From: a virus
DNA: 64,000 bases
Virus record (IMG/VR): IMGVR_UViG_3300010373_000006
Location: 1-64,000 of that record
Direction: 5' to 3' (one strand)
Below the pieces are notes generated by a model. The model saw only the letters and a list, made by a program, of their open reading frames with translations, made no database searches and had not been told where the DNA came from. The position numbers were made by a program, and so were the translations under genes. Shown here in pieces: positions 11,818 to 62,970 of this stretch (position 1 is its first letter; each line of letters opens with the position of its first letter).

Positions 11818-11856
11818 TAGGCACTATGAAGAAAACCGAGGAGAAAATCGTGAATC

Positions 11857-11928: not shown

Positions 11929-11945
11929 TTTCGTTTCGCATTGGG

Positions 11946-16041: not shown

Positions 16042-16382
16042 CCACCCTCGCCGCCCAACTCGCCGCCGTCCGCGATCTGCTCCTCGAAGGCCGCCGCTGG
16101 GTGCGCACCAACGCCACCGAATGCCGGCGGAATCTCGCGGAAGCCGCCCAGCGGCTTGATAGCGTGATCTACAGTGACCTGACCGGGAATTTCCCCGTCG
16201 GAGGCCCCGAAACGCCCTACGCGGCCTTCTGTGCGATTCTGGAGCGAACCCGCGATAACCTGCTCGCGGGGGCTAAGTGCATCCTTGCGTGCCCGGCGGC
16301 GACGATAGGGGCGATCGATCTGGCGGCATGGGAGCTGGCGGTGGAGGTGGGGAGGATGGAGAGGGAGCCCGAGACGGAATGA
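16038..16382 (+). CDS. hypothetical protein, TTG start
   Basis: TTG 16038 lies 7 bases after AGGGAG and overlaps the previous TGA. The 114-residue product is helical and Arg-rich at first (LLLEGRRWVRTNATECRRNL) and Ala-rich later. It overlaps the methyltransferase start by 4 bp. It is not recognised. Confidence 0.5.
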   Translation: MTTLAAQLAAVRDLLLEGRRWVRTNATECRRNLAEAAQRLDSVIYSDLTGNFPVGGPETPYAAFCAILERTRDNLLAGAKCILACPAATIGAIDLAAWELAVEVGRMEREPETE

Positions 16383-19893: not shown

Positions 19894-20120
19894 AGACCGC
19901 AACCGCGACGTGCAAGCCCATCCTGTTTTCCGGGCCGCTACACGATCGGTGTCGGCGCCGGGGAATTGATTGTCTACTGCAAGAGGCTCTCGGACGTCTC
20001 GCAGGCTCCGATCGGGTTCTGCGGCGTGAAGGTGACGGCGAAGTTCACGGGCGCGTTCTTCCGGTCCAGGGAAGCCCGCTCGCCAACGGCCCTACCGATC
20101 CGGAGAACCCTGAGCCATGA
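19890..20120 (+). pseudogene. small gene with apparent frame disruptions
   Basis: ATG 19890 overlaps the previous stop and the frame ends at TGA 20120, overlapping the next start, so the ends look genuine. Third-position G+C is high in this frame only for about the first 15 codons and the last dozen. In between (about 19930-20080) the +1 frame instead has near-uniform G or C at third positions and reads RYTIGVGAGELIVYCKRL and QAPIGFCGVKVTAKFTG. This suggests two compensating indels, a sequencing error or recoding. The protein family is not recognised. Confidence 0.5.
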
Positions 20121-21118
20121 GCGACGCGGCCCCCTCTGCCCCCAAAGAAATCCGGTTCTACCGGGCGAGCGAAAAGCCCTACGGTTGCTTTTCCAACTTA
20201 TACCGCAGGCCCTTCGAATTCGAGGGCAAGACCTACTCCACGGCGGAAGCCGCCTACCAGGCCGGGAAACCCCGGGCTGACGCCGTGCGCCGCTGGATCC
20301 TCGATGCGCCGTCCCCCTCTCTCCTCGCCATGGCGGCCCATGGCCTGGCCTACTGGGACATCGCGCCCGGCTGGAGCAAGAACCGCCGCACTCGCATGAA
20401 GGCCGTCGTCCAGGCGAAGTTCGCCCAGCACAAGGACCTGGCGGATCTCCTCGTCGGTACGGGCGCGGCCCGGCTCGTGGAAACGGGCACGGTCGATAAC
20501 GACGTGAACCGCCGCTGGGGCGAGGTGAAGGGCGTCGGCGAAAACGGACTGGGGATCATCCTGATGGAAGTCCGGGGCGAACTGGGCGGCACAGGCGTCA
20601 TTGCACGCACACCGCCACGCCTCGGGCTCGATCCCAGTCGCCCCTTGCTGTTTCTGGATATTGATGGCGTACTCAATTGTTCGTTCAATAGCCGAGAGCA
20701 AATCGGCATGTTCCATGTCGAACCGGTCCTGGCTTTTCGCAAGTTCCTCCAGGCCGTGACGCCCCAGGTGGTCTTATCGTCCACCTGGAGGAGCATCATC
20801 CATGCGGGCTACATGACCGTGAAGGGCTTTGAATCGCTCTTGCTCACGCACCGGATTCGCTGTGAGCTCATCGACGTGACCGCGAAGGACCTGGGCGACG
20901 TCGACCCCTTTCAGCGCCCGACCCGCGCCGCTCAGATTGCCGACTGGCTCAACCAGCATCACATGGAACAGCCCTATGTCGTGATTGACGACGACGATGA
21001 TGGGATCTCGGCGGCGGGGCATCCCTTTGTGCAGACGAATGGGGCCTTCGGGTTCACTGCGGAGGATGGCGAACGGGCGATTCAATTGCTTGAGGAGCAA
21101 AGGAAGGTTTTAACATGA
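20117..21118 (+). CDS. NADAR - HAD-like fusion protein
   Basis: Residues about 10-155 form a NADAR (YbiA-like) domain: FYRASEKPYGCFSNLY, FEFEGKTYSTAEAAYQAGK, KAVVQAKFAQH and the DNDVNRRWGEVKGVGENGLG end motif. Residues about 172-330 form a HAD-like domain starting LLFLDIDGVLNCSF with a conserved LSSTWR and VVIDDDDD. NADAR proteins act on ADP-ribosyl compounds, and some remove ADP-ribose from guanine in nucleic acid; HAD domains of this type occur in RNA-repair proteins. A role in undoing host damage to nucleic acids is inferred. Confidence 0.8.
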   Translation: MSDAAPSAPKEIRFYRASEKPYGCFSNLYRRPFEFEGKTYSTAEAAYQAGKPRADAVRRWILDAPSPSLLAMAAHGLAYWDIAPGWSKNRRTRMKAVVQAKFAQHKDLADLLVGTGAARLVETGTVDNDVNRRWGEVKGVGENGLGIILMEVRGELGGTGVIARTPPRLGLDPSRPLLFLDIDGVLNCSFNSREQIGMFHVEPVLAFRKFLQAVTPQVVLSSTWRSIIHAGYMTVKGFESLLLTHRIRCELIDVTAKDLGDVDPFQRPTRAAQIADWLNQHHMEQPYVVIDDDDDGISAAGHPFVQTNGAFGFTAEDGERAIQLLEEQRKVLT

Positions 21119-22310: not shown

Positions 22311-22997
22311 GTGAAGGTCTATCTTGCATCGCCGAATACGCAACAGCAGGCAGAGCACGCCGCCGATATGCCGGTGTTGCTCTCGTTTGCGTGCTATTCG
22401 AGTTGGCAGGATAGATATCAGCAAACCTATTCCCGCATCCTGATCGACTCGGGCGCTTACTCGGAACTCAACAGCGGCAAGATGATCGAACTCCCGGCCT
22501 ACATCGACTGGGCGGCGCGATGGACTGGCCACGCCGACGCCGTGGCAGGACTCGACGACATTCGCGGTGACTGGAAGCGGTCGCTTGCGAACTACGAGCG
22601 ATTCCCCGGCGGGTTTCCCACCTTTCATGAGACCGACCCGCCCGAACTTCTGGATGAGTTGATCCCTATGGCTCGCGAGCGTGGCGGATGGCTGGGAATC
22701 GGACTCTTACCGCCGCGCGAGGGAAAAGAGACGTGGGTTCGCGAAACGTGCTCTCGAATCCCCGACGACCTTCACGTTCACGGCTGGGCACTTAGGCGAT
22801 ACACGCACGTTCGGCGGCTCGATTCCGTCGATTCAACAAATTGGTGGCGCGATGCTATGAAACTGCGAACACTTCCGGACTTATCGCACCTGACGTATGG
22901 TGAATGCCTTGAAATCGTCGTGAAGCGCTACCAGCGATGGGGGCGAGAGGTTCGCGAGTCCAAGGGAATGCCGCTTTTTGATGAGGTGGTATCATGA
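22311..22997 (+). CDS. DpdA-like DNA transglycosylase (TGT superfamily)
   Basis: The 228-residue product carries LIDSGAYSELNSG near residues 42-54, matching the D-S-G-(A/G)-(F/Y) catalytic motif of tRNA-guanine transglycosylases and phage DpdA, followed by DAVAGLDDIRGD and GGWLGIGLLP barrel segments. DpdA swaps guanine in DNA for a 7-deazaguanine. The stop overlaps the start of queE by 4 bp, which strongly supports a deazaguanine role. It is shorter than many TGT proteins, and the exact base inserted cannot be told from sequence. Confidence 0.65.
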   Translation: MKVYLASPNTQQQAEHAADMPVLLSFACYSSWQDRYQQTYSRILIDSGAYSELNSGKMIELPAYIDWAARWTGHADAVAGLDDIRGDWKRSLANYERFPGGFPTFHETDPPELLDELIPMARERGGWLGIGLLPPREGKETWVRETCSRIPDDLHVHGWALRRYTHVRRLDSVDSTNWWRDAMKLRTLPDLSHLTYGECLEIVVKRYQRWGREVRESKGMPLFDEVVS

Positions 22998-23629
22998 AGA
23001 CCTACGCCGTGAAGGAAATGATCAAGACCCTCCAGGGCGAGGGCTTCCACGCGGGCCGCGCGGCGATCCTCTGCCGGTTCGCGGGCTGTAACCTCTGGTC
23101 GGGGCGTGAAAAGGATCGCGCCTCGGCCGTCTGTCGGTTCTGCGATACGGATTTCATCGGCGTCAACGGCGAGAACGGAGGGCGGTACACGGCGGCAACG
23201 CTCGCATCGCGAGCTGCCGAATTATGGGGTAGCGATCGCACGCACCGTTTCATTTTTCTCACCGGCGGGGAACCGATGCTACAGGTCGATTCGGTGTTGA
23301 TCGACGCGCTGCATCGCTTCGGATTCTTCGTACAGGTCGAGACCAACGGGACGCTGCCGGTGCCGCCCTGCCTGGATTGGATCACGGTGAGCCCGAAGGC
23401 TGGTGCCGAATTCAGGCAAATGAGCGGGCAGGAGTTGAAGTTGGTCTATCCGCAGGCCGGCGCGGAACCCGAGCGATACGCCGGATTGACAGGCTTCCGC
23501 GACTTCCTTTTGCAGCCGATGGATGGCCCGGCGAAAGAGGCGAACACGCGAGCGGCAATCGAGTATTGCTTGGCTCATCCGCAATGGAGGCTCAGCACGC
23601 AAGTTCATAAACTGATCGGTGTGCGATAG
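22994..23629 (+). CDS. queE: 7-carboxy-7-deazaguanine synthase QueE
   Basis: The 211-residue radical-SAM enzyme begins VKEMIKTLQGEGFHAGRAA and has the QueE-specific cluster motif C32-x14-C47-x2-C50 followed by DTDF, then FLTGGEPMLQ, VETNGT, SPKAG and the closing LSTQVHKLIGVR. QueE contracts 6-carboxytetrahydropterin to 7-carboxy-7-deazaguanine. QueC, QueD and FolE homologues are not in this window, so precursors must come from the host or elsewhere in the phage. It is translationally coupled to the DpdA-like gene. Confidence 0.92.
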   Translation: MKTYAVKEMIKTLQGEGFHAGRAAILCRFAGCNLWSGREKDRASAVCRFCDTDFIGVNGENGGRYTAATLASRAAELWGSDRTHRFIFLTGGEPMLQVDSVLIDALHRFGFFVQVETNGTLPVPPCLDWITVSPKAGAEFRQMSGQELKLVYPQAGAEPERYAGLTGFRDFLLQPMDGPAKEANTRAAIEYCLAHPQWRLSTQVHKLIGVR

Positions 23630-27411: not shown

Positions 27412-28161
27412 TCACAATTCGCAATGGTGCTCATCACTTCTCCGCGCCTCCATCTCAGCCAGCCGCTTCATGTCCTCCATCGCCGCTTCGTTGTCCTCGA
27501 AAAATCGCACCGGCGAGACACGCTCCGGTGAACTCGCGTCGTAAATCATCATTGCGGCGAGTGGCGTATCGAAAAATCGCTCCAGGGCACTCCCGGCCTC
27601 GCCTGCGAGATGGACGACCCAGCCGGCGCGACAGTGGGTCTTGTCGCACTCGTGCCAAGTGTCCATTTTGAGCGCATCGCAGTTCGACGCCGATGCATAA
27701 ACGGCCTGATGGATGTGCGCGATCGTCGGCGTTGGCGGAGGGCCGAATTGACCGGAGGCGACCGCGTCAGGATCACCTTGGCAGCGCGAGCAGCCCGAGC
27801 AGTCCGAGCAGCGCGAGCAGTCCGAGCAGCGCGAGCAGTCCGAGCAGTCCAAGCAGAGCGAGCAGCGCGAGCAGCGCGAGCAGCGCGAGCAGCCCGAGCA
27901 GCCCGAGCAGCCCGAGCAGCCCGAGCAGCCCCAGCAGTCCGAGCAGTCCGAGCAGTCCGAGCAGTCCAAGCAGAGCGAGCAGCGCGAGCAGCCCGAGCAG
28001 CGCGAGCAGTCCGAGCAGTCCGAGCAGCCCGAGCAGCCCGAGCAGTCCGAGCAGCCCGAGCAGCCTTTTAGGCTGTCCAGGGCCTCCCTTGCGGCCTCAA
28101 TGCTGCCGAAATATTTGGCCGAGCATTTGTTGCCGTTGCTGTCTTCTACCCACGTTTCCAT
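27412..28161 (-). CDS. cysteine-rich (Cys-Ser-x)n repeat protein
   Basis: The 249-residue product starts with a 32-residue normal segment (WVEDSNGNKCSAKYFGSIEA), then about 95 residues in which cysteine recurs every third position (C-S-G, C-S-D, C-S-R, with rare C-L-D and C-W-G), then a globular C-terminal domain (DTWHECDKTHCRAGWVVHLA, ALERFFDTPLAAMMIYDAS, VRFFEDNEAAMEDMKRLAE). The C-terminal domain is known in other phages next to varied repeats. A repeat with a Cys every third residue could bind metal or form a beta-solenoid; this is inference. ATG 28161 follows AAGGA by 8 bases. Confidence 0.7.
   Translation of the reverse strand: METWVEDSNGNKCSAKYFGSIEAAREALDSLKGCSGCSDCSGCSGCSDCSDCSRCSGCSRCSLCLDCSDCSDCSDCWGCSGCSGCSGCSGCSRCSRCSRCSLCLDCSDCSRCSDCSRCSDCSGCSRCQGDPDAVASGQFGPPPTPTIAHIHQAVYASASNCDALKMDTWHECDKTHCRAGWVVHLAGEAGSALERFFDTPLAAMMIYDASSPERVSPVRFFEDNEAAMEDMKRLAEMEARRSDEHHCEL
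27783..28064 (-). repeat. 9-bp tandem repeat array encoding Cys-Ser-x
   Basis: About thirty 9-bp units of the form GAGCAG(T/C/C)CC or GAGCAGCGC on the plus strand run without interruption; the reading frame is kept and only the third residue of each triplet varies. Larger blocks are duplicated as well, for example the segment containing CCAAGCAGAGC at 27847 and 27965. Confidence 0.9.
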
Positions 28162-37022: not shown

Positions 37023-38570
37023 ATGCGATTTTTTATGGGTCCTTCCGCTTATGCGTTGCGAAGGACGTCGCACCGGGAACAGCCCATTTATGCAATACAC
37101 TTTCTTTTTTTGAGCGTTTCGCCCTTGAGCCAAGCCAGCAAAGCCCGTCGTTCTGACGCCCGAAAACCCGCGCAAGATGAGCCCGTAAAGGCGCTTGCGC
37201 CCGTCTCGCGAGTCACGATCGACGCCCTGACGCCCGACCCCGCGAACCTCCGCAAGCACACCGATCGCAACGTCGCGGCGGTGGACGCCAGCGTGAAGCG
37301 TTTCGGTCCCGCACGCTCGATCGTGATCGACGAAAACGGCGTCGTTTGCGCCGGAAATCGCACGCTCGAAAGCGCCAAAGCGGCGGGTTTCACCGATGTT
37401 TTGATCGTTGACCCCGAGCCGGGGCAGTTGGTCGCGGTGCGGCGCAAGGACTGGAGCCCCACCGAGGCGGTCGCGTACGGCATCGCGGACAACCGCTCGT
37501 CGGACCTCGGGGCGAACTCGTGGGAAGACGTGGCGCTGGCCGAGACGCTTCGGGCGATGCAGAGCGAGGCGTTCGATCTGGGAGCGGTCGGGTTTACGGG
37601 GGACGAGGTTGACGAGCTGGTGAAGGGGCTGGGGAATGCGTTGGTGGGTGGTGAAGGGGGATCGAGCGGCGAAGACCAAGGCGCTCAGCACGACAAGGCC
37701 GACGAATTGCAGGCGAAGTGGGACGTGAAGACGGGCGACCTGTGGGTGATCCCGAGCAAGACCGGGAAGGGCGAACATCGACTGCTGTGCGGGGACTCGA
37801 CGAAGGCGGAGGACGTGGCGAGGGTGATGGCGGGGGAGAAGGCGGACCTGTGCTTCACGAGCCCGCCCTACGGCCAGCAGCGCGATTACGAGAGTGGTGG
37901 TATCGGCGACTGGGATGCGCTCATGTGTGGCGTGTTCGGCAATCTGCCGATGGCGGACGCAGGGCAGGTGCTCGTCAACCTCGGGCTCATTCATCGGGAC
38001 GGCGAGTGGATTCCGTACTGGGATGGGTGGATTCAATGGATGAGAGAGCAAGGATGGAGGCGGTTTGGGTGGTACGTGTGGGATCAAGGAAGCGGGTTGC
38101 CAGGCGACTGGAATGGCCGGCTTGCGCCATCGCATGAGTTCGTGTTTCACTTCAATCGGGAGCCAGTCAAACCCGAAAAAACTGTGGCCAAGAAACCGGA
38201 AAGCGTGCGAGATAGAACCGGCGACACCACCATGAGAGGCGACGATCCTGTCGGTCGAACATGGTCGTCCGGCGAAGCCTCGCTTCAGACTCATAAGGTT
38301 TCCGACAGCGTTATACGGGTTCAGCGGCAATGCGGCCCTGTGATGAAAGACACCCATCATCCGGCGGTTTACCCGGTAGGTTTCCCTGAATTCGCAATGA
38401 AATCTTGGCCTGGTATTGCCTACGAGCCCTTCTCCGGTTCCGGAACTACCATCGTCGCCGCCGAGCAAACCGGTCGCCTCGCGAGAGGCATTGAGATATC
38501 GCCCAAGTACGTCGCCGTCGCCCTTGAACGGCTCGCCGGTCTCGGTCTCGAACCCCGCCGCGCATCATGA
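37023..38570 (+). CDS. ParB-like domain - DNA N-methyltransferase fusion
   Basis: The 515-residue frame starts at ATG 37023, but the first 30-45 residues are poorly supported and TTG 37110 or a later start is possible. A ParB N-terminal domain follows (VTIDALTPDPANLRKHTDRN, VCAGNRTLESAKAAG). The methylase part has the catalytic TSPPYGQQRDY near residue 280 and the AdoMet motif FSGSGTTIVAAEQTGR near 470, the beta-class order (catalytic motif first). SPPY can serve N6-adenine or N4-cytosine. Such fusions precede terminase genes in many phages. Confidence 0.85.
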   Translation: MRFFMGPSAYALRRTSHREQPIYAIHFLFLSVSPLSQASKARRSDARKPAQDEPVKALAPVSRVTIDALTPDPANLRKHTDRNVAAVDASVKRFGPARSIVIDENGVVCAGNRTLESAKAAGFTDVLIVDPEPGQLVAVRRKDWSPTEAVAYGIADNRSSDLGANSWEDVALAETLRAMQSEAFDLGAVGFTGDEVDELVKGLGNALVGGEGGSSGEDQGAQHDKADELQAKWDVKTGDLWVIPSKTGKGEHRLLCGDSTKAEDVARVMAGEKADLCFTSPPYGQQRDYESGGIGDWDALMCGVFGNLPMADAGQVLVNLGLIHRDGEWIPYWDGWIQWMREQGWRRFGWYVWDQGSGLPGDWNGRLAPSHEFVFHFNREPVKPEKTVAKKPESVRDRTGDTTMRGDDPVGRTWSSGEASLQTHKVSDSVIRVQRQCGPVMKDTHHPAVYPVGFPEFAMKSWPGIAYEPFSGSGTTIVAAEQTGRLARGIEISPKYVAVALERLAGLGLEPRRAS

Positions 38571-45419: not shown

Positions 45420-45668
45420 ATGAAGGTCACATTGACTACGAATCTCGGTCTCATCGACGCCAAACGGCTCGGAATCGGCGCCGCAATGGAGGGCGACACG
45501 ATCGACGCTGACGACCCCTCTGCGGGCGAACTGATCAAGCGCGGCTGGGCCATTCCCGCCACCGCGAAGACCACCCCGGCAACCGCCGACATCAAGGCCG
45601 TCCCTCCGACCGGCGATCTGAAAAGCGCACCCAAGGGCGCGCCCACATCGGACAAGGGCCAGGCGTAA
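45420..45668 (+). CDS. small head-region protein, 82 aa
   Basis: ATG 45420 lies 6 bases after TGGAG (ATG 45408 lacks a site). MKVTLTTNLGLIDAKRL and GELIKRGWAIPA resemble small phage proteins found after the capsid gene; the rest is Pro/Lys/Thr-rich. Its TAA overlaps the next ATG. Confidence 0.5.
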   Translation: MKVTLTTNLGLIDAKRLGIGAAMEGDTIDADDPSAGELIKRGWAIPATAKTTPATADIKAVPPTGDLKSAPKGAPTSDKGQA

Positions 45669-46978
45669 TGCAAACACCCGAGTCCTCAGACCGCCGCCTG
45701 TTTCTCGCGATGCCCGGCTACGGAGAGATGACTGCCGGCGCCGCGCGCGGCTTCTGGCGATCGACCCGACTCCCGGACACTCACGTCTATTACGAGTATC
45801 GCGAAGGATCGCTCCTCGCCGCGAACTTCAATAGCCTGTGGGTCTCCGCGCTGAATCGCGTCCATCGAGGCCAGCGCGTCGATTACTTCGCGATGCAACA
45901 CGCGGACGTTGAGCCACAGGACTGGTGGCTCGATACGCTCATCGACGAACTCGAATCCAGGGATCTTGATATCCTCGGATGCGTCGTGCCGATCAAGGAC
46001 ACTCGCGGCACGACGTCGCTCGCCTTGGCACGCGATGACGGCGATGACTGGCGGCCACTGTGCCGGTTGACGATGGAGGAGGTATACCGTCTGCCGCCGA
46101 CGTTCACGAGCGACGATACCGGCCATCCGCTCCTACTCAACACCGGCCTTTGGGTCTGTCGGTTCGATCCGTCGTGGGTCACGAAGGTTCACTTCACGAT
46201 CAACGATCGCATTGTCCAGGAGCGTTCGACGGGCGAATATCGCGCGCAGACCGAGCCCGAGGACTGGTACTTCTCCCGGCTCTGCCACGAGCTCAAGCTC
46301 CGCGTTGGCGCCACGCGGAAAATCATATTGACGCACCGCGGGGCTGCATCGTTCACGAATGTTCGCCCCTGGGGTGAGTCCTACGATTCGGCCTGGGTGG
46401 ATGAGAGTCCTATCCCGGACGATCTTCCCGGCTTCGCGTTTCCCTTCGATGTGGCCGGCTGGCTCCATCCCGAGGAGGGTCGACAACTCGCGCGGCTCGC
46501 GTCCGGTAAGCGAGTGCTTGAGATCGGCTCATACTGCGGCGCCTCGACGATCTGCCTCGCGCAGACCGCTGCCAGCGTCGTCACGGTTGATCCGCACGAC
46601 GGACGAGCGACTCCGGTCCCGCAACCGACGCTGGAAAACTTGACCAACAATCTCGCGCGCTTTGGTGTGGCGGATCGGGTCGAAATCTGCGTCGGCACGT
46701 TTGCCGAATGGTCAGTATCGCTGAAGGAAGCATGTTTCGATTTGATATTCATCGACGGCGCGCACGACGCCGATTCGGTCGCCGCCGATATCGCGTGCTC
46801 CCTCGATTTGCTTGCACCGGGCGGCACCCTCGTGTTTCACGACTACCGCTCGAACGAGCCCGCAGTTACAGCCGCCGTCGATGATCTGATCGCATCGGGC
46901 GGTGAACTGGTCTCCGCCTGTTCGTCTCTGGCCGTGGTTCGACCCCCGGCCTCGGTTTCTTTACCCCTGGAGGTCTGA
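45668..46978 (+). CDS. glycosyltransferase - methyltransferase fusion
   Basis: Residues about 8-255 form a GT-A-like domain (FAMQHADVEPQDWWLDTLID with an acidic motif, DILGCVVPIKDT, LLLNTGLWVCRFD, RAQTEPEDWYFSRL). Residues about 270-430 form a class I AdoMet methyltransferase (VLEIGSYCGASTICLAQ, VVTVDPHDG, FDLIFIDGAHDADSVAADI, LVFHDY). The gene sits between the capsid and the decoration-like gene, so glycan or methyl tags on head proteins are possible; a target on host surface or DNA cannot be excluded. Confidence 0.75.
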   Translation: MQTPESSDRRLFLAMPGYGEMTAGAARGFWRSTRLPDTHVYYEYREGSLLAANFNSLWVSALNRVHRGQRVDYFAMQHADVEPQDWWLDTLIDELESRDLDILGCVVPIKDTRGTTSLALARDDGDDWRPLCRLTMEEVYRLPPTFTSDDTGHPLLLNTGLWVCRFDPSWVTKVHFTINDRIVQERSTGEYRAQTEPEDWYFSRLCHELKLRVGATRKIILTHRGAASFTNVRPWGESYDSAWVDESPIPDDLPGFAFPFDVAGWLHPEEGRQLARLASGKRVLEIGSYCGASTICLAQTAASVVTVDPHDGRATPVPQPTLENLTNNLARFGVADRVEICVGTFAEWSVSLKEACFDLIFIDGAHDADSVAADIACSLDLLAPGGTLVFHDYRSNEPAVTAAVDDLIASGGELVSACSSLAVVRPPASVSLPLEV

Positions 46979-53288: not shown

Positions 53289-55553
53289 ATGGCAAGCGCA
53301 AGCAATATTCGCGCAGGCCGCGCGTTCGTCGAACTCGGCAGCACCGACGTCAATTTCAACAAGGGGCTCGACAAGGCCCTGCGCCGGATTCAGACGTTCG
53401 GGCGCAGCGTTGCCACGATCGGCCAACGTGTTGTGCAAGGCGGCATCTTCGCCGCTACGCCGTTCGCGCTGGCCGGGAAGTCCTTTGCGTCGTACGAGCA
53501 GGCGATGGCGCGTGTCAAGGCCATCACCAACGCTACCGGCGACCAGTTCTCCGCGCTGGGCAACCTCGCGAAGAAACTCGGTCGCGATACGCAGTTCTCG
53601 GCCGCTGACGCTGCGAAAGCGATGGGTAACTTCGCGCAGGCTGGATTCTCGGTCAACGAGATTCTGAAAGCCACCGGGCCGACACTCGACCTCGCCGCAA
53701 CCGCTCAGATCGGCATCGCCGAGGCGGGTGACATCGCAGCGAAGATCCTCCGCGGGATGGGACTCGATGTGAGCCAACTGTCGGGCGTGATCGACGTTCT
53801 CGCGAAGGCCGCGACGACCAGTAATACCGATATCGTCATGCTTGGCGATGCGTTCAAATTCGTTGGCCCCGTTGCGAAGTCCGCGGGCGTTTCGCTGGAG
53901 GAAATCACCGCCGCGATCCAACTGCTGTCGAACGCCGGCATTCAGGGCGAACTCGCGGGAACAAGCCTCCGCGGCATCCTTCTAAGCCTGACATCGCCGT
54001 CCGAAAAGGCGGAAAAGGAACTCGCCAAGCTCGGCATCCGAATCAAGGACGGCAAGGGCGATTTCGTCGGGCTCATCAGTGTAGTCGGGCAACTGCAAAA
54101 AGCGCTTGCCGGCATGGGCAACGCACAGCGGCTCGAAATCCTCGGCCACATCTTCCCCGACCGTCAAGCCGCCGGCGCTATGGAACTCGTGGCGCAGGGA
54201 GCCGATCATCTCGCCTCCGCGACCAAGGCTCTGGGCGGCGCGGCCGGGACTGCGGCACGTGTGGCTGCCGTGCAGCTCGACACAATGTCAGGCGCTGCTG
54301 AAATGGTCATGTCCTCTCTCGAAGGGCTTGGCCTGGAAGTCGGCGAGGCGCTGAACCCCGTTCTCCGCAAGGCCGCGACATTCCTGGTTGACCTGCTCAA
54401 CGCGCTCGCAGCGACCGCCAAGGCTAGCCCCGATTTGATTATCGGGATGGCGAAGACAGTAGCCGTGAGCATCGCGGCCGGCGCAGCGATCGCGGGCCTC
54501 GGCGTCGCATTGAGCACAGCAGGTGCCGCTCTCGCCGTGATCCTTTCGCCGCTCGGCATAATCGCAACTGCGCTCGGCGCGGGAGTGGCCGCGTGGGCGA
54601 AATGGACCGAGGGAGGACAACTCGCGATCGCTGGGTTCCTTCCGCTCTTGGACAGCATGAAAGAAACCGCGACCACGACGTTCAAGGCGATCAGCGACGC
54701 GCTCAAGGGCGGTGATCTGGCGCTCGCGGGCAAGGTTCTCTGGGCGGGTCTCAGAGTCGAATTCCTCAAAGGCAAAAACTATGTGATGGATGTATTTTCA
54801 GAAATCGCGATGTTTGCAAAGAACACATGGAGCGATATCAGTCCCGAGTTCGACAAGACGCTCGTGAATGCGTTTTTCGGAATTCTGCATACATGGGTTG
54901 ATGTCAGCGACGCGATGGTCACGACATTTAATCAGGCACTTGAAGAGATGGCCAAGAACGTTGTTGCGATGTTCGTTGGGCCGATCGGCGAGGCTCTTGG
55001 CGCTGCGCTAGGAGTCGATCTCGTAACTCCGCTGAAGAACGTCGGAGTTCTCGAATCTGACGAAAAGAAGGCGTTCCGCGAGGACAGACGGCAGACGCGG
55101 CATGAGCAGTTGAATCAAGACAATCAGGGCATTCTTAATGATATCGACGCCGAGGAACAGGACAACGCCCGGCGTCACGCGGAAGAGCGCGCGTTCGACC
55201 CAGGCATTGAGCAGCGCCGGACCGATCTCCAGAAGGCTCAGGACGAACTCAACGCACTCACTCAGGAGGCCGCCAAAGAGGCGTCGCGCGTCACGTCAAG
55301 CACTGGCCCCACGACCACATTCCCGTCGCAACCCAGGAGTCCAGGCGAACTCCCCGACGTCGAGGAGAACGTGAGGGCCGCGGTTCGCAAGGGCGAATCC
55401 ATCGGCACGTTCAACGCCTCTGCGGTCAGCCGGCTGGGCGCTGGCAAGTCTCTCACATCGCTGATGGAAAACCAGATCAAGGCAACCGAGTCCGTGGAAA
55501 AACAACTCGCCAAACTCAATGAGAAGGCCCGCCGCGGCCTGGCATTCGGCTAA
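53289..55553 (+). CDS. tail tape measure protein
   Basis: The 754-residue product has the TP901-1-type tape measure core (MARVKAITNATGDQFSALGN, ADAAKAMGNFAQAGFSVNEI, EITAAIQLLSNAGIQGELAG, TSLRGILLSLTSPSEKAEKE), hydrophobic segments near residues 385-440 and a long charged coiled-coil end. It sets tail length; by the usual rule of about 1.5 angstrom per residue the tail would be roughly 110 nm. Confidence 0.92.
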   Translation: MASASNIRAGRAFVELGSTDVNFNKGLDKALRRIQTFGRSVATIGQRVVQGGIFAATPFALAGKSFASYEQAMARVKAITNATGDQFSALGNLAKKLGRDTQFSAADAAKAMGNFAQAGFSVNEILKATGPTLDLAATAQIGIAEAGDIAAKILRGMGLDVSQLSGVIDVLAKAATTSNTDIVMLGDAFKFVGPVAKSAGVSLEEITAAIQLLSNAGIQGELAGTSLRGILLSLTSPSEKAEKELAKLGIRIKDGKGDFVGLISVVGQLQKALAGMGNAQRLEILGHIFPDRQAAGAMELVAQGADHLASATKALGGAAGTAARVAAVQLDTMSGAAEMVMSSLEGLGLEVGEALNPVLRKAATFLVDLLNALAATAKASPDLIIGMAKTVAVSIAAGAAIAGLGVALSTAGAALAVILSPLGIIATALGAGVAAWAKWTEGGQLAIAGFLPLLDSMKETATTTFKAISDALKGGDLALAGKVLWAGLRVEFLKGKNYVMDVFSEIAMFAKNTWSDISPEFDKTLVNAFFGILHTWVDVSDAMVTTFNQALEEMAKNVVAMFVGPIGEALGAALGVDLVTPLKNVGVLESDEKKAFREDRRQTRHEQLNQDNQGILNDIDAEEQDNARRHAEERAFDPGIEQRRTDLQKAQDELNALTQEAAKEASRVTSSTGPTTTFPSQPRSPGELPDVEENVRAAVRKGESIGTFNASAVSRLGAGKSLTSLMENQIKATESVEKQLAKLNEKARRGLAFG

Positions 55554-55556
55554 TCC

Positions 55557-56366
55557 ATGTCCGCAACGATCAGCGAAGTCACCAAGTCTCGGCCCTTCAC
55601 CTATGGAGGGACTACCGAGCAGACGGTTATTTATATTATCGTCGGGACTACCGATGACGCCGAAGTCTATAGCCTGCTCGGCTCGACTGCGCCCACCGTT
55701 TTCAATGGGCTCATCCGCGAGAACTACGAGGGTGAACCGCTCGGCAATGGCGTGTGGATCGGCCGCGTCACGTATCAGAAAATCAATAATAATAATGAAT
55801 ACACGTTCAAGACAGGCGGCGGTACACAGAAGATTACGCAGGCGCTTCATACGACGATCTATGACTTTGTGACCGGCTATGATTACTACGGCGATGACGT
55901 CGGCACTGGCCCCGACTTCGGCGGCGCGATTGGCGTCGATGGTGACAAGGTTGAAGGCGTGGACATCACGGTCCCGGCGTACGAGTTCAGCGAAACCCAC
56001 TACATCGCCGAGGCGTCGGTCACAGACACGTACAAGCAAACGCTTGCGGAACTCACGGGCAAGGTCTGCAATAGCGCCTTCAAGGGATTCCAGGGCGGCG
56101 AGGTGATCTTCAACGGTGCCACCGGGGCACTGCGCGGGGATGGCCAGTGGGGAATCACATTCGACTTCGCGGTATCGCGCAACGCCAGCGGCCTCGAAGT
56201 GGGTGGCATCACCGGAATTGACAAGGATGGATGGGATTACCTGTGGGTCTACTACGAGGACTTCGAGGATGAGGCCGCGTACGCAATCGTCAAGCGACCC
56301 GTCGCGGTCTACGTCTCGCAGGTCTACTATCGTGCCGACTTCTCGGCGCTCGGTATCGGGACGTAA
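55557..56366 (+). CDS. tail tip protein candidate, 269 aa
   Basis: A beta-rich acidic protein (RPFTYGGTTEQTVIYIIVGT, IGVDGDKVEGVDITVPAYEF) directly after the tape measure, where distal tail or baseplate hub proteins are encoded. The family is not recognised; the role is by position. Confidence 0.55.
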   Translation: MSATISEVTKSRPFTYGGTTEQTVIYIIVGTTDDAEVYSLLGSTAPTVFNGLIRENYEGEPLGNGVWIGRVTYQKINNNNEYTFKTGGGTQKITQALHTTIYDFVTGYDYYGDDVGTGPDFGGAIGVDGDKVEGVDITVPAYEFSETHYIAEASVTDTYKQTLAELTGKVCNSAFKGFQGGEVIFNGATGALRGDGQWGITFDFAVSRNASGLEVGGITGIDKDGWDYLWVYYEDFEDEAAYAIVKRPVAVYVSQVYYRADFSALGIGT

Positions 56367-56384: not shown

Positions 56385-57428
56385 ATGCCGCCTCCCGAAT
56401 CCCTGAAGCACGTCCGGCCCGGTCAACTTTGGGCACCACCGGACGCAACGACCTGGAACGCATTGGTTGACGCCGGGCGCGCCAATCAGCTCCAGCAATA
56501 CGACCAGACGCGGGACGGAAACCCCGTCTTTCGGCAGGGCGACATCATCCGCGTCAAGAACGTCGCGGGGCTCGATCTGCTGCGCAATTCAATTGTGGGC
56601 CTGCAAGAGCCGATCTTCCTGCCGACGACCGACAAGAGCCGTGCAACGAATGCGTTTGTCCGCGAGGTGACGTTCCGCGGTACGATCCCTTCGAGCACGT
56701 TCCAAGGCAAGTTTGCCGTGCTGCTCGATCCCATCGGCATCGGCAAAATTGGACGCGCCTACGTCGCGGGCGTGTGCCCGGTCAAGGTCAACATCCGAAG
56801 CGCAGGCGATACGTGCTGTGATGTCGAGAACGACGACACGACACAACTCTACTCGATGAGCCAGGGAGGCTCAGCCCAGATCCTATGGGCGCAGAAGCAA
56901 GAGATGGACGATCCGACCGGCCCACAGTGGGCTTACGTTCGGTTGGGAACGAACTGTCGAATCTGCTGCCATTCGTCGAGTTCATCGTCAACGTCGACCT
57001 CACAAGGCTGCCCAAACGATTGTGGCAACTGCGGCACAACCCAGGCTCCATGCGAATTCCCGGCGCTGGTAAGCCGTATTCAGGAGATCATGCCACCGCA
57101 CGTCCCTAACGGCCAGTGCATGAATGCACAATACAACATGGTGTACCAGGGAAATTGCACCTGGCATGCGCCAACCGGGGATACCGGCGACGAGTCATGT
57201 CCGCCGGGTCAACTCCCGCACTACCCGCAAAACACAACAGCCGCAACGCTCTTTCATAGCGGCGACCACTGGGTATTTTTCCTGTCTGATGGCTTTCATT
57301 ATGCGGAATGGGACGGACCCGCGCTAGGGTGTTTTGTGGCCCAGGACTATCATCCCGCCACCACATTGAGCGCCTTGAGTCAGGAACCCGATCCCGGCGC
57401 GTCCGTATTCTTCAATACCGGCGCATGA
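56385..57428 (+). CDS. Cys-rich tail-region protein
   Basis: The 347-residue product has an N-terminal beta-rich domain (PDATTWNALVDAGR, IVGLQEPIFLPTTDK), a Ser-rich hinge with Cys residues at about 200-225 (CRICCHSSSSSSTSTS, CPNDCGNCG), and a C-terminal domain with further Cys. The hinge resembles one found in planctomycete virion or host surface proteins. It may be a tail fibre or adhesin. Confidence 0.55.
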   Translation: MPPPESLKHVRPGQLWAPPDATTWNALVDAGRANQLQQYDQTRDGNPVFRQGDIIRVKNVAGLDLLRNSIVGLQEPIFLPTTDKSRATNAFVREVTFRGTIPSSTFQGKFAVLLDPIGIGKIGRAYVAGVCPVKVNIRSAGDTCCDVENDDTTQLYSMSQGGSAQILWAQKQEMDDPTGPQWAYVRLGTNCRICCHSSSSSSTSTSQGCPNDCGNCGTTQAPCEFPALVSRIQEIMPPHVPNGQCMNAQYNMVYQGNCTWHAPTGDTGDESCPPGQLPHYPQNTTAATLFHSGDHWVFFLSDGFHYAEWDGPALGCFVAQDYHPATTLSALSQEPDPGASVFFNTGA

Positions 57429-57432: not shown

Positions 57433-58635
57433 ATGAGCGAACACAAGTGCACTTGCATGTCTCCTGGCTGGTGTCCGGTCTTCAACCGCCCTGTCATGGG
57501 TCGCGTTTTCGACCTGTGCCGAGGCGAGGCCGGCGTTGATATGCAGATGAGGGAAAAGGTTATCGAGCACTGGCGGACGTTCAAGGACCGTCAAGACCGC
57601 AGTATCGTCGACGCGCCCGGCGGCTGCGATGATTCACACAATGCCGATGATCACTACGCGCTCTCATTCTCGAAGCACGGCCGGATGTCCCTGCACGACG
57701 CGCGCGGCGAGGCCGACGATTCGCTGCGCGATCAGTATCCCGGCGTGTGGTACTTCCTCGGAGGCGGCCCAAGTCTCGCCGATGTCGACCTGTCTACACT
57801 CACTGGGCGGCAAGTGCTGGCGGTTAACTCGTGCTGCGAACTCTTCCCGCAACCTACCGTGTGGCTCGGCGTCGACCAGCCCGACGATCCGCCCGATCGA
57901 TTCCGTGGCGTGCCGTGGGAAGATGCGAGCGTGATCAAGTTCCTGCCTCGCGCATGGGCGGGATGCGACGCGGGTGGCGAGTTTACCTATGAGCGGCTGA
58001 ACACGCATTTCTTCCTGCGCAACCATCGGTTCGACGCTGGGCAGTTCCTGAGCGAGCGTAGCGTGAACTGGGGAGCCGACGCACCCTACGGCTCGGGGCG
58101 TAGCGTGATGCTCGCGGCCTTGAAACTGCTCTGGTATCTGGGGGCATCGCGTATCGTTTTGCTAGGCGTCGACTGGCACATGGACCCCGCGAGACCCTAT
58201 GCACACTCCGCACCGAAGGATGAAGTAGGCTGCGCGTCGAACAACGACAAGTTCCGCATCCTCGAAGCCCGCTTCCGCATCCTCGGTCCGATCCTCGAAC
58301 GAGCCGGGATGACCGTCGTGAACGCGACGGAACGAAGCCGCCTTGAGGCGTTCCCGCGAACCACGCTGGATTACGAGCTCCGTAGCGAAGCGATGTTCAC
58401 CGAGCGGAAGGTCGCGAGCCTGACGCCGGAGGAGACCGCGACCCGAAGCGCTCAAGCGGTCGCGTCGATGAAATACAGCCGCGAGCAGACTGCGAGGGCG
58501 AAAGCGTGCCCGTTCCGCGATTGCAAGACGTGCAACGGCGAGGCGGCGTGCAGCTCAGGGAAGGGCAATCTCGCGGGCGGTTCGCGATCCACACTCGACC
58601 ACTGCCGGGAGTGCATCATGGATCTGGTCATCTAA
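57433..58635 (+). CDS. DUF115/MAF-like glycan-transfer protein
   Basis: The 400-residue product has a Rossmann-like core, YFLGGGPSLADVDLSTLTGR followed by VLAVNSCCELFPQPTVWLGV, and IVLLGVDWHM further on, the pattern of DUF115/motility-associated and related sialyltransferase-like proteins. N- and C-terminal cysteine clusters (CTCMSPGWC; CPFRDCKTCNGEAAC) are added. It begins a row of seven overlapping modification genes. The substrate is unknown. Confidence 0.65.
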   Translation: MSEHKCTCMSPGWCPVFNRPVMGRVFDLCRGEAGVDMQMREKVIEHWRTFKDRQDRSIVDAPGGCDDSHNADDHYALSFSKHGRMSLHDARGEADDSLRDQYPGVWYFLGGGPSLADVDLSTLTGRQVLAVNSCCELFPQPTVWLGVDQPDDPPDRFRGVPWEDASVIKFLPRAWAGCDAGGEFTYERLNTHFFLRNHRFDAGQFLSERSVNWGADAPYGSGRSVMLAALKLLWYLGASRIVLLGVDWHMDPARPYAHSAPKDEVGCASNNDKFRILEARFRILGPILERAGMTVVNATERSRLEAFPRTTLDYELRSEAMFTERKVASLTPEETATRSAQAVASMKYSREQTARAKACPFRDCKTCNGEAACSSGKGNLAGGSRSTLDHCRECIMDLVI

Positions 58636-58638
58636 ACG

Positions 58639-59313
58639 ATGCTGTACATCCTCACCCCAACCGATCAACGTCCGGTCGCGTTCGCACTCCTCGAAAAGTG
58701 GCTCGGCGCGCAGGACTGGTCCGGACCGTTTCGGTGGATCGTCGGCACTCGCGACGCATCGCCGTATGCCTTTAGGATGAATCAAATTGTCGTGGAGCGC
58801 GAAGACACGAAGGCGCTTCATCCGCTGTGCTCAAACCTGCTCGCATGCTTCGACGCCCTGGACATCGAGCCGGGCGATTTGGCGCTGATCTGCGAAGACG
58901 ACGATTACTACGCGCAGGAGTATCTGCGCCGGCTCGTTTCGCTGGCCGATGGCGTATCGCTCGCAGGGCAGTCCCTTGCGCGGTATTACCATGTCGGCTC
59001 GCGTCGATATCAACAGAACCACAACACGGCGCATGCGTCGCTCTGCCAGACGGCTTTCCGGGCGGACGTGCTGCCGCTGCTGAGAGAGATTTGCCTGCGC
59101 GGGAATCCGTCGATCGACAGGCGACTATGGGACGAATGGCGCGGAACGAAGCGGTTGGAGCCGTCGCAACACCATATCGGATGCAAGGGCCTGCCGGGCA
59201 TCAAGGGCGTTGGCCTGGGGCACCGGGCGCACTTTGGGCGGTCGGATGCTGATGGACGCATGGCGGTGGAGTGGGGGTTGCCGAGGGAGTATGATCGGTT
59301 CAGGTGGAAATGA
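58639..59313 (+). CDS. GT-A glycosyltransferase
   Basis: The 224-residue product is a nucleotide-sugar-type transferase: an N-terminal strand-loop (MLYILTPTDQRP) and the acidic metal motif in ALICEDDDYYAQEYL near residues 82-96. It follows the DUF115-like gene after 3 bases. Donor and acceptor are not predictable. Confidence 0.65.
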   Translation: MLYILTPTDQRPVAFALLEKWLGAQDWSGPFRWIVGTRDASPYAFRMNQIVVEREDTKALHPLCSNLLACFDALDIEPGDLALICEDDDYYAQEYLRRLVSLADGVSLAGQSLARYYHVGSRRYQQNHNTAHASLCQTAFRADVLPLLREICLRGNPSIDRRLWDEWRGTKRLEPSQHHIGCKGLPGIKGVGLGHRAHFGRSDADGRMAVEWGLPREYDRFRWK

Positions 59314-59320
59314 GAGACCA

Positions 59321-60295
59321 ATGATGCATTCGATTCCGTCAACAATGGTTCCTCCCAGCAAGGCGCGTCCCGGAATCTGGCGGGGCGGTATCTTGCAGAT
59401 CATGGTCACGCGCGCATGTGATCTCGCTTGCCACCACTGTACGCAGGGAAGCAATCTGGGCGGCAAGCCCGTTATCATGACACCCGACGAGTTCGAGCAA
59501 GCCGTAGTCAGTATGGCAGGCTACTTCGGGGTCGTCGGCGTGTTTGGCGGCAACCCCACGATTTCGCCCCACTTCAGCGAGTATTGCCGAATCCTTCGCA
59601 AGCACGTTCCGTTCGGCCAGCGAGGATTGTGGTGCAACAACCTGAGAGGAAAAGGCGCGGACGCTCGGGTGACCTTCAACCCGAGGCACTCGAACATCAA
59701 CGTACATCTGAACTCTGACGCACACGCCGAGTTTGTCCGAGACTGGCCGGAATCGGTTCCGTACCTCAAGGGGAATGACCGGGATAGTGTGCATAGTTCA
59801 CCCTGGGTGGCCATGAAGGACGTCGAGTCCGACGAGTCGAAGCGATGGGCGATGATCGGCGCTTGCGACGTAAATCAGCACTGGTCAGCCCTCATCGGCC
59901 TGGTTCCGGGGCGTGGCCTGAGAGCGTTCTTTTGCGAAATCGCATACGCGCAGGCCGCGTTGCACGCGGATAACCCCGATTGGGACGGGACCGGGCGGCC
60001 CATGCCTGATACGGGGCTCGAAGTCGTACCAGGATGGTGGCGCAGGCCGATGGCGGATTACGAGCACCAGGTCCGCACGCACTGCCACAACTGCGGAATT
60101 CCCCTGCGTCGGAAAGGGCAACTTGCGATCGGTGGAGAAAAGGAAGAGTTCAGCGAGACCCACCGGCACATTGCAAGACCGAAAATCAAGAGCCGGCCCG
60201 TCGAGTTTGTGCAACTCGGTGGTATCGTCTCACGCCCGACGAGACCGGCGACGCAATACCTTCCAAATGTCACACCGGGGTACAGGGGCCAATGA
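59321..60295 (+). CDS. radical SAM enzyme
   Basis: ATG 59321; 324 residues. The cluster motif is C33-x3-C37-x2-C40 (RACDLACHHCTQGSN), followed by GVFGGNPTISPHFSEY in place of the usual G-G-E-P. A C-terminal C-H-N-C pair (THCHNCGIPL) could hold a second metal site. It is expected to start radical chemistry on a sugar or peptide; the neighbours suggest a glycan or virion modification. Confidence 0.75.
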   Translation: MMHSIPSTMVPPSKARPGIWRGGILQIMVTRACDLACHHCTQGSNLGGKPVIMTPDEFEQAVVSMAGYFGVVGVFGGNPTISPHFSEYCRILRKHVPFGQRGLWCNNLRGKGADARVTFNPRHSNINVHLNSDAHAEFVRDWPESVPYLKGNDRDSVHSSPWVAMKDVESDESKRWAMIGACDVNQHWSALIGLVPGRGLRAFFCEIAYAQAALHADNPDWDGTGRPMPDTGLEVVPGWWRRPMADYEHQVRTHCHNCGIPLRRKGQLAIGGEKEEFSETHRHIARPKIKSRPVEFVQLGGIVSRPTRPATQYLPNVTPGYRGQ

Positions 60296-61014
60296 TGACC
60301 GCTCGATACCCCTGCGGCTGCGTCAACGTGCGCCACGCACCCACCGGCGCCTTCCGCTGTCTCTCGAAGTGCGCTCATCATCGCGCCATGCAGATGAGCC
60401 CGGTCATGCTGGACGAAGCGTACTACACGAAACTCGGCGTCCTGAAGGATGGGAAACTGGCCGAGACGAACCACGTCGCAGAACTGAGGGAGGCGCTGGG
60501 AGAATGGCCGTCCCCAAAGAATTATCGAGCGACCGCGAGCAATCCATATCCTGTTGCCATCGAGTTGGGCTGTGGCGCAAGCCCCTATGTCGGCAGCCTG
60601 ATCGGCGCTGGATTCTGGTACTTGGGAATCGACCAATCCCGATGGGCTGTTGATTGGGTCGAAACCATTGACCCGCGATCGAAAACTGTCGCGCGCGATG
60701 TCGACGAGTTCCTGATCGCGACCGAAGCCAAATCGTCCGTTCCTCTAATACTCGCCGCCCACGTCTTCGAGCACCTTCCGGACGCGCCTTCTTCCATCCG
60801 TAAGGCTGCGCAAGCGCTCATGCCCGGCGGCGAGTTCTGGATCGTCGTTCCCGACGACAGCGACCCAGTGAATCCCGATCACTTGTGGTTCTTCAACGAA
60901 GCGTCATTACGCCGAACCGTCGAACTCGCGGGCCTGACGGTCCTTCGCCTCGAGACCCGCCGCTACATCGCACGCGAAAACTTCCTCTACCTTCGGGCTA
61001 TCAAACCACAGTGA
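60292..61014 (+). CDS. AdoMet methyltransferase with N-terminal Cys cluster
   Basis: ATG 60292 overlaps the previous stop. The 240-residue product starts with CGCVNVRHAPTGAFRCLSKC, then has the class I motif VAIELGCGASPYVGSLIGAG, YLGIDQSRWAVDW, AAHVFEHLPDAPS and LMPGGEFWIVVPDD. It is a likely O- or C-methyltransferase of a sugar or small molecule. Confidence 0.75.
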   Translation: MMTARYPCGCVNVRHAPTGAFRCLSKCAHHRAMQMSPVMLDEAYYTKLGVLKDGKLAETNHVAELREALGEWPSPKNYRATASNPYPVAIELGCGASPYVGSLIGAGFWYLGIDQSRWAVDWVETIDPRSKTVARDVDEFLIATEAKSSVPLILAAHVFEHLPDAPSSIRKAAQALMPGGEFWIVVPDDSDPVNPDHLWFFNEASLRRTVELAGLTVLRLETRRYIARENFLYLRAIKPQ

Positions 61015-61538
61015 TCGTCTTCGGCATCGGCATGCCCAAAACCGGGACATGCTCGCTCACCGCCGCGCTAAACCGTCTCGGCGTCCCATGTCTTCACGAC
61101 CCAAGCCCGCACCAAGCCCGGCTCATCCTGCGCGGTGAGCGCGTCGAGCCCTACCAGGCGGCATGCGGGCATACGCTGTATCGCCAGTGGTATCGGCTCT
61201 ACGAGCGGTATCCTGCGGCGAAATTCGTGCTCACGAGCCGCCCAAAAGAGGAGTGGCTGACCTCGCGCGTCGCTCATGTCTACCGCGAACGCGTGGCCGG
61301 CGGCCCCTGGCAGCACATCGACACGAGACGGGACGCGAGCGACTACGACGCACACTACAGGGCGGTTCGGCGGTTCTTCGGCCGCCGGCCTGGCTTCGTC
61401 GAGTTGCCGCTAGGGAGCGGCTGGGCACCGCTGTGCGGTGTGCTTGGAATGCCCGAACCCGACGAGCCCTACCCGCACGAGAACACCGCAATCGGCGGCC
61501 TGAGACGACTGCTTTCCGCAATGGAAAACGCGCGTTGA
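61011..61538 (+). CDS. sulfotransferase
   Basis: GTG 61011 overlaps the previous stop. The 175-residue product has the PAPS-binding loop in GIGMPKTGTCSLTAALNRLG (residues 5-24) and the second PAPS motif in FVLTSRPKEEWLTSRV near residue 73. It is smaller than most sulfotransferases but both key motifs are present. It would transfer sulfate from PAPS to a hydroxyl, probably on the glycan made by the neighbouring enzymes. Confidence 0.75.
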   Translation: MIVFGIGMPKTGTCSLTAALNRLGVPCLHDPSPHQARLILRGERVEPYQAACGHTLYRQWYRLYERYPAAKFVLTSRPKEEWLTSRVAHVYRERVAGGPWQHIDTRRDASDYDAHYRAVRRFFGRRPGFVELPLGSGWAPLCGVLGMPEPDEPYPHENTAIGGLRRLLSAMENAR

Positions 61539-62143
61539 TCGAACTATCAACCGAGATCTCTCATCGCGTGGATTTCGCGCTGCTTTGCAATGCGCGCGGA
61601 TTCAAGGATGCGGTCGAGATCGGTACGGACCTCGGGCGGTTCGCGAAAGACTTCCTCGATAGGTTCAAAGGTAATTGGTTATTCTGCGTTGATCCTTACG
61701 AGCCGCATCCGGACTTTTCGTATGACCGGAGCGGAGACCTGATCGTTGCCGCACAGGCGCTTGCGCCGCATCACGGCCGGTTCCGATTCGTCCGCGCGCG
61801 GTCAACCGATGCCGTTGCGTGGGTGGCACGAGTGATCAGCCCTGAGTTTATTTATATCGACGGATCACACGAGGAGCCCGACGTTACGGCCGATTTGCTG
61901 GCGTGGTGGGACATCCTGCCGACGCGCGGCATGCTCGCGGGCCATGACTTCGACGACGATCACCCCGGCGTGATCGAGGCCGTCACCGCATTCGCCGGTG
62001 CGCGAAACCTGACCGTGAGGCTGACGCACGAAAAGGACGCGCCGCCATCCTGGTATATCTACAAGAAAGAACCGGAGATTCTGTTTCACCGATTCTTCAG
62101 GTTTGATGAGTCGGCGAACGCTGCGTACACGAGGGCCACGTGA
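61535..62143 (+). CDS. AdoMet methyltransferase, TTG start
   Basis: TTG 61535 overlaps the previous stop. The 202-residue product has VEIGTDLGRFAKDFLDRF, WLFCVDPYEP, PEFIYIDGSHEEPDVTADLL and MLAGHDFDDDHP, a Methyltransf_24-like pattern similar to the C-terminal half of the capsid-region fusion protein. It overlaps the next gene by 4 bp. Confidence 0.7.
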   Translation: MIELSTEISHRVDFALLCNARGFKDAVEIGTDLGRFAKDFLDRFKGNWLFCVDPYEPHPDFSYDRSGDLIVAAQALAPHHGRFRFVRARSTDAVAWVARVISPEFIYIDGSHEEPDVTADLLAWWDILPTRGMLAGHDFDDDHPGVIEAVTAFAGARNLTVRLTHEKDAPPSWYIYKKEPEILFHRFFRFDESANAAYTRAT

Positions 62144-62970
62144 TGCCAGAAATTCGCGGAATCACCATCGCCGTAGGCGCGCCCTACGCGTTCACGCTCG
62201 GGATCTGCCTGCCGCGCAACATGCGGCACTTCTCGGAGTGCACTGTGGTCACGACGCCCGACGACCACGCGGTGAAGGCCGTTGCGTCGAAGGTGCCCGG
62301 CGTGCGTGTCGTTGAGACGGATGAGTTTTTCGCGCATGGCGCGAAGTTCAACAAGGGGCTCGCGATGGAGCGCGGGTTTTCCGAAATGGGTCGACATGGA
62401 TGGATCTGGATATGGGACGCCGACTGTCTGTTTCCGGACTTCGTCCCATTCGAGCGTCTCCAGTTCGGCAAGCTTCACGGCTGCCGCCGCCGCATCCTTC
62501 AAGACCCGCGACGCTGGCATACTGGGCTTCCGTGGTCCGCGTGTCCGCCGTGCCGCAACGAAGGGCCGATCGGGTTCACGCAAATCTTTCATGCCGACGA
62601 CCCGGTCGTCAAGGATCGGCAGCCCTGGTACGACGTGAGTTTCGGCCACGCAGGCGGAGGGGACGCGGCGTTTTTGCGGCACTGGACGGGCGATAAACAT
62701 GTCGCGTTGCCGATGGACGTACTGCATCTCGGTCCGCGCGACACGAATTGGTTCGGGACCGACGAAGCGTCACGTCAACTTATGTCGGAATTTGTCGTGC
62801 GTAATCGCTGGACGAAGCGACGACCAGAACTGAACGGCAAGCACCCTGACGAATCCGTGTCGATCCCGCATCGTGTTCACGTTCCCGGCTACGGGATCAG
62901 CGATTTCGAGTTGCCATTCGTCCGTCACCGACAGCAAGCGGAACAGACGTCGATTACCACTGCACCCTGA
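62140..62970 (+). CDS. GT-A glycosyltransferase
   Basis: GTG 62140 (or ATG 62143); 276 residues. ITIAVGAPYAFTLGICLPRN begins the fold and IWIWDADCLFPDFVPF carries the D-x-D metal motif near residue 94. The C-terminal part has H-x-G and R-D-T-N-W segments. It is the last gene of the modification row; its end overlaps a minus-strand gene by 17 bp. Confidence 0.7.
   Translation: MMPEIRGITIAVGAPYAFTLGICLPRNMRHFSECTVVTTPDDHAVKAVASKVPGVRVVETDEFFAHGAKFNKGLAMERGFSEMGRHGWIWIWDADCLFPDFVPFERLQFGKLHGCRRRILQDPRRWHTGLPWSACPPCRNEGPIGFTQIFHADDPVVKDRQPWYDVSFGHAGGGDAAFLRHWTGDKHVALPMDVLHLGPRDTNWFGTDEASRQLMSEFVVRNRWTKRRPELNGKHPDESVSIPHRVHVPGYGISDFELPFVRHRQQAEQTSITTAP

Follow-up and report, generated by a model that had tools for sequence, protein, structure and literature searches.

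What is a run of seven genes, among them a predicted sulfotransferase and a radical S-adenosylmethionine (SAM) enzyme, doing directly behind the tail genes of a phage? The question is raised by the virus contig IMGVR_UViG_3300010373_000006, which is 69,197 bp long and whose first 64,000 bases (the window) were analysed. The answer favoured here, with a rough probability of one half, is that this cassette works in the cytosol, where it attaches an O-linked glycan to a tail protein and finishes that glycan with methyl and sulfate groups. An earlier note on this DNA had proposed a methylated, possibly sulfated glycan system. As a gene set the proposal is well supported, and the genes favour decoration of the virion.

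A gene run directly behind the tail genes

The contig carries integrase, DnaB, terminase, portal, capsid and tape measure genes. The late genes of the window follow one another in the order terminase, portal, capsid-protease fusion, tape measure, a 269-aa tail gene, a 347-aa protein containing cysteine and serine and, finally, the cassette. The seven genes (g1-g7) all lie on the + strand between 57433 and 62970. The tail gene upstream stops at 57428 and 4 bp separate its end from g1. Within the run, short gaps (3 and 7 bp) separate the first three genes, and at each of the four later junctions the genes overlap, first by 1 bp and then three times by 4 bp. The seven-gene cassette described earlier, with its coordinates, its spacing and its place directly after the tail genes, is therefore borne out, the one refinement being the junction with a 1-bp overlap. 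Genes beyond the cassette sit on the opposite strand. A terminator-like site near 63300 was considered, but it is on the minus strand and is not part of the cassette operon.

Could the cassette be a host island outside the phage, the case that the earlier note named as refuting its idea? This was rejected. Phage genes flank the cassette on the same contig, and the GC content of g1-g7 (0.59-0.66) and their third-position GC are the same as in the rest of the phage, so that composition gives no pointer to foreign host DNA.

The enzymes of the cassette

The clearest member is g5 (61011-61538, + strand, 175 aa), which is securely assigned by family and fold as a predicted 3'-phosphoadenosine 5'-phosphosulfate (PAPS)-type sulfotransferase. 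It matches the Sulfotransfer_4 profile (PF17784) with 97.3 bits against a cut-off of 22.8 (1.5e-27). Its structure model has a predicted local distance difference test score (pLDDT) of 92.5 and resembles solved sulfotransferases (Foldseek 1e-11 to Cpz8; Z 17.4 to SgdX2 and 17.1 to Cpz8, over 156-168 residues). The motifs expected to hold the cofactor are a 5'-phosphosulfate loop (GMPKTGT) and a 3'-phosphate motif (RPKEEWLTS), and T11, T13, R77 and S85 are invariant in 18 aligned members. Cpz8 and SgdX2 are bacterial Sulfotransfer_4 enzymes and share fold, family and PAPS-type loop with g5. However, g5 is shorter, and Cpz8 is part of an antibiotic pathway (caprazamycin, according to its PDB title). 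No APS (adenosine 5'-phosphosulfate) kinase gene was found in the contig and PAPS must therefore be supplied by the host.

How unusual is such an enzyme in a phage? Searches by tblastn with g5 and with one of its relatives were negative across 50,697 deposited phage records, so the earlier remark that it is unusual holds for deposited phages. It does not hold in the sense of a lone oddity: relatives of g5 occur in 18 IMG/VR loci, and sulfotransferases recur at the same site in relatives of the phage. Lists of the viral genes present in metagenomes also name sulfotransferases (PMC10829341).

The assignment of g3 (59321-60295, + strand, 324 aa) as a radical SAM enzyme is likewise secure at the level of sequence. 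The Radical_SAM profile scores 37.6 bits against a cut-off of 29.5 (3e-9) and the motif CDLACHHC fits the pattern CxxxCxxC. Further conserved cysteines (C182, C205, C255 and C258) could possibly bind a second, auxiliary cluster. Homologues are 61% identical in locus L110 and 66% identical in locus L168. One clue to the substrate comes from 294 planctomycete genomes, in which g3 has a single full-length host relative. Its neighbour on one side is an O-antigen-type ABC ATPase and on the other a glycosyltransferase-like gene, surroundings with which a sugar substrate would fit.

The genes g4 (60295-61014, + strand, 239 aa) and g6 (61535-62143, + strand, 202 aa) can be assigned with security as predicted class I SAM methyltransferases. 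Both score above cut-off, g4 with 45.6 bits (Methyltransf_23, 8e-12) and the glycine motif ELGCGASPY, and g6 with 49.2 bits (Methyltransf_24, 1e-12) and the glycine motif EIGTDLG. The TTG start codon of g6 is backed by a relative in L168 that aligns from residue 1.

The three remaining genes are weaker candidates. For g1 (57433-58635, + strand, 400 aa) the signals are weak ones that agree in suggesting a DUF115/GT42-like transferase. The MptE-like/DUF115 profile scores 14.7 bits, below its cut-off of 34.6 (E 0.027), and PHROG 4603, annotated 'alpha-2,3-sialyltransferase', matches at 4e-12. The structure model is poor (pLDDT 50.5) and its best fold match, the CstII sialyltransferase at E 0.067, is a hint at most. 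DUF115-like motifs are shared with the Maf/DUF115 flagellin glycosyltransferases, and the fold hint points to the GT42 sialyltransferases. Unlike these enzymes, g1 does not reach the Pfam cut-off, and its C-terminus is rich in cysteine. A link between this Cys-rich end and a small open reading frame in L168 was suspected and found to be unsupported. Relatives of g1 occur in 39 other loci; in Caulobacter and Brevundimonas jumbo phages its matches are no more than weak.

The GT-A-like protein g2 (58639-59313, + strand, 224 aa) had no match in the family profile search, and g7 (62140-62970, + strand, 276 aa) reaches 13.7 bits with the GT2 profile, below the cut-off of 23.3 (E 0.06). Each has a DxD-like acidic motif, EDDD at residues 86-89 of g2 and DAD at residues 93-95 of g7, which is short and hence weak evidence. 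When g7 and g2 were compared at profile level with GT2 proteins from the relatives, the result was negative. Both are called putative glycosyltransferases from the acidic motif alone. No match to g7 was found in the planctomycete genomes, and in IMG/VR it was found in L168 alone. Among the deposited phages, tblastn with g2, g3, g5 and g7 returned no relative, and single-sequence scans of IMG/VR with g1, g3 and g5 found none either. Single-sequence scans did not suffice, and it was alignment-based scans that found the relatives of the cassette genes.

Different cassettes at one site

Is the cassette a single event, or one of several at this position? The tail genes allow the site to be followed from phage to phage. 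The tape measure protein (53289-55553, + strand, 754 aa; PHROG tape measure 7e-94, PhageMin_Tail 2e-50) has relatives of about 40% identity in IMG/VR. The small tail gene (55557-56366, + strand), which serves as the marker of the lineage, is 46-49% identical to its relatives. It had no match among the deposited phage records, and 72 of its 80 best genome hits are in Planctomycetota. One complete planctomycete genome, CP087563.1, contains six copies of the tail module (L047, L068, L074, L076, L080 and L088), as if prophages multiply or are kept there.

The order of tape measure, small tail gene and Cys/Ser protein is conserved in the relatives, and the content downstream varies. Where the tail genes are 40-50% identical, the glycan cassettes behind them differ from relative to relative. 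That of L005 has glycosyltransferase-like genes, a 2OG-like gene and a Sulfotransfer_3 gene, and that of L004 has GT4, radical SAM and GT2 genes. Loci L094-L096 hold GT4, GT2, Sulfotransfer_4 and methyltransferase genes. In L053, a locus of the isolate TBK1r, a GT25-Sulfotransfer_3 fusion stands with GT2-like genes and a radical SAM gene; similar GT25-sulfotransferase fusions are found in L070 and L086. Together with these fusions, the sulfotransferases at this site belong to at least two Pfam families.

The closest relative of the window's cassette is in L168, where homologues of g3 (66% identical), g6 (48%) and g7 (52-54%) follow the same tail genes and g1, g2, g4 and g5 are absent. From this comparison, the window's cassette would be a core of g3, g6 and g7, with four other genes, the sulfotransferase included, gained or lost since the two diverged. 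The open-access papers that were searched contain no description of a tail cassette of this kind in phages of planctomycetes.

Other genes occupy the site as well. Downstream of the tail protein, the gene most often present in relatives codes for a product of about 480 aa that matches Hint domains weakly (L022:13267-14820 and 53 other loci). Where a glycan cassette is missing (L009-L167), BREX, restriction-modification or SAVED-domain genes often come after the tail module. The site looks like one that gathers defence genes too, although some of these may lie past the end of the prophage.

The serine-rich tail protein

The candidate acceptor of the glycan is the Cys/Ser-containing tail protein (56385-57428, + strand), which has homologues at the same position in 155 fetched loci. 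In many relatives this protein has poly-Ser regions of hundreds of residues, with 402 serines in L053 and a long tract also in L094. These serines are encoded by all six codons, which indicates that the tract is kept at the level of the protein. A cassette follows in all 14 loci that have a large poly-Ser region and can be read further downstream, but in only 10 of the 82 loci without one (Fisher 8e-11).

A proposed mechanism

How might the pieces fit together? The cassette would be the last part of the late tail operon and would act in the cytoplasm of the infected cell. None of its seven products has a membrane segment (maximum 19-residue hydropathy 1.64), and therefore cytosolic modification of a neighbouring phage protein is the simplest reading. 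In such a scheme g1, g2 and g7 would build a short O-linked glycan on Ser or Thr residues of a virion protein, for which the Ser/Cys tail protein encoded 4 bp upstream is the likeliest candidate. The sugar might be remodelled by g3, through epimerisation, deoxygenation or something similar. Methyl groups would be added to the glycan by g4 and g6 from host SAM, and g5 would sulfate it with host PAPS. Phages of Planctomycetota would exchange the content of a module at the tail site, the cassette being one version of it, and the cassette would probably serve to tune the binding of the tail or to shield it.

A more general proposal is that phages of Planctomycetota carry sulfated glycoprotein tails. 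In other words, their poly-Ser tail proteins would receive O-linked glycans in the cytoplasm, and phage sulfotransferases, bifunctional GT25-sulfotransferase enzymes among them, would cap these. The exchangeable cassettes would vary from phage to phage in the manner of surface serotypes. This idea is tentative and less likely to be true than not.

Several observations do not sit easily with cytosolic O-glycosylation and capping of the tail protein. The glycosyltransferase assignments of g1, g2 and g7 are weak; such families are clear in the cassettes of relatives and weak in the window's own. No nucleotide-sugar genes were recognised in the part of the window's genes that was scanned. At the presumed catalytic position g5 has His54, where its relatives carry Asp, Glu, Asn or His, mostly an acidic residue. 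In L110 a g3-type radical SAM gene occurs without any recognised glycosyltransferase, so the substrate of this enzyme may be a different one. In the window itself the Ser/Thr stretch of the tail protein is only ten residues long (SSSSSSTSTS, residues 197-206, at 56973-57002, + strand). It forms a linker between the cysteine clusters, and with so short a stretch the window is a mild case of the poly-Ser pattern. The association of poly-Ser proteins with cassettes also loses force on a tree of the small tail gene, where the traits change only about 5-7 times and the association is clustered. Independent pairs on this tree always agree in direction but are too few for significance. In addition, the seeds of the hidden Markov models (HMMs) came partly from poly-Ser loci, which is a bias. 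A Pfam check lessens this problem. The 35 genes checked beside poly-Ser proteins, which were chosen by hand, belong mostly to glycosyltransferase, sulfotransferase, radical SAM and FkbM families, whereas the 25 commonest families of 94 same-site genes from cassette-free loci include a single GT2 hit. Even so, the tree clustering and the biased seeds limit the weight of the association.

What if the target is not the virion but the host? The cassette might alter a polysaccharide or glycolipid of the host surface and so change the phage receptor, leading to superinfection exclusion or lysogenic conversion. Serotype conversion typically involves glycosyltransferases and methyltransferases, an integrase is encoded by the phage, and the host relative of g3 sits in an O-antigen-type locus. 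However, the products lack membrane segments, no flippase or polyprenyl-phosphate transferase was recognised among g1-g7, the cassette is in the tail module and not beside the integrase, and cassettes co-occur with poly-Ser tail proteins. A host-surface role is accordingly unlikely, though it is the strongest of the alternatives, and decoration of the virion is favoured over it by the tail-module position, the poly-Ser proteins and the lack of membrane and export genes.

Within the virion, the modified protein might be the capsid or tail tube instead of the Ser/Cys tail protein. The head module of the window has a second candidate glycan gene, an uncharacterised N-terminus fused to Methyltransf_24 (45668-46978, + strand; 1e-21), and at the matching place L170 has a glycosyltransferase-like gene and a g3-like radical SAM gene. 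The targets could thus include the capsid or other virion proteins, which also counts against the Ser/Cys protein as acceptor, and glycans are borne by both capsid and tail tube in mycobacteriophages. Nevertheless, the cassette lies next to the Ser protein, and the presence of a cassette goes along with large Ser tracts. This option is somewhat less probable than a host-surface role.

Much less probable is an action on phage DNA or nucleotides, in other words DNA hypermodification. The phage does have a Mom-like gene, C5 and other DNA methyltransferases and a QueE-like radical SAM gene, and nucleotide modification by glycosyltransferases and sulfotransferases has been reported in phages (PMC10829341). 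However, the cassette is in the tail module, far from the DNA-modification genes, and the cassettes of L168 and L094-L096 lie in the same tail context. Least probable of all is that the cassette is cargo that plays no part in the virion, one of many sets of unrelated genes gathered at the site, as the restriction-modification, BREX and SAVED-domain genes of other loci might suggest, since its content is consistently glycan-related and a cassette is present in every readable poly-Ser locus.

Relation to known systems

Virions of mycobacteriophages are glycosylated by phage-encoded glycosyltransferases and bear O-linked glycans on capsid and tail tube. The system proposed here has phage-encoded glycosyltransferases in common, putative ones in the window, and would likewise put an O-linked glycan on virion proteins. 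It differs in having up to seven genes, with a radical SAM enzyme, two methyltransferases and a sulfotransferase, in an unrelated phage lineage with other hosts; the candidate acceptor is a Ser-rich tail protein and the system is known from genes alone. Putative glycosyltransferases have been mentioned for phage Maravista (PMC11256854).

A second parallel is provided by Gram-positive bacteria, whose serine-rich repeat glycoproteins are encoded beside their glycosyltransferases (PMC7948813, PMC5207161). As is proposed for the phage loci, a Ser-rich protein is next to genes for its cytosolic glycosylation. However, here the protein belongs to a phage tail and is not a cell-wall adhesin, no accessory Sec genes were recognised, the glycosyltransferase families are other ones, and sulfotransferases are present. 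The long Ser tract is absent from the window (10 residues) but present in the relatives L053 and L094. The novelty appears to lie in how these elements are combined: sulfotransferases and radical SAM enzymes belong to an exchangeable cassette at the tail site that is linked with a poly-Ser tail protein, in a lineage without deposited phages.

Other features of the contig

Beyond the window, at 66470-68671 of the contig (L002:10471-12672), there is a Cas12m-like effector (PADLOC Cas12u1 6.5e-68, PDB Cas12m 1e-57). It is followed at 68857-69186 (L002:12858-13187) by an array of clustered regularly interspaced short palindromic repeats (CRISPR) with five 36-nt repeats at 72-73 nt spacing, which reaches the contig end. 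By sequence, effector and array are a phage-borne type V-M-like CRISPR system. In the window, the DNA-modification genes encode a Mom-like protein (11826-12563), a C5 DNA methylase (16277-17788), a QueE-like radical SAM enzyme (22994-23629) and a ParB-DNA methyltransferase fusion (37023-38570). A NADAR domain is fused to HAD_SAK_2 at 20117-21118, and a protein with a long CSGCSDC-type tripeptide repeat and no family match is encoded on the minus strand at 27412-28161.

Implications

The lineage is abundant in Planctomycetota genomes, yet it has no match among deposited phages. If the proposed mechanism is true, phage virions can bear sulfated, methylated sugars made by their own genes, and the tail surface would be a fast-changing trait that is set by exchangeable cassettes. 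One such cassette sits in the cultured isolate TBK1r, which makes the idea directly testable.

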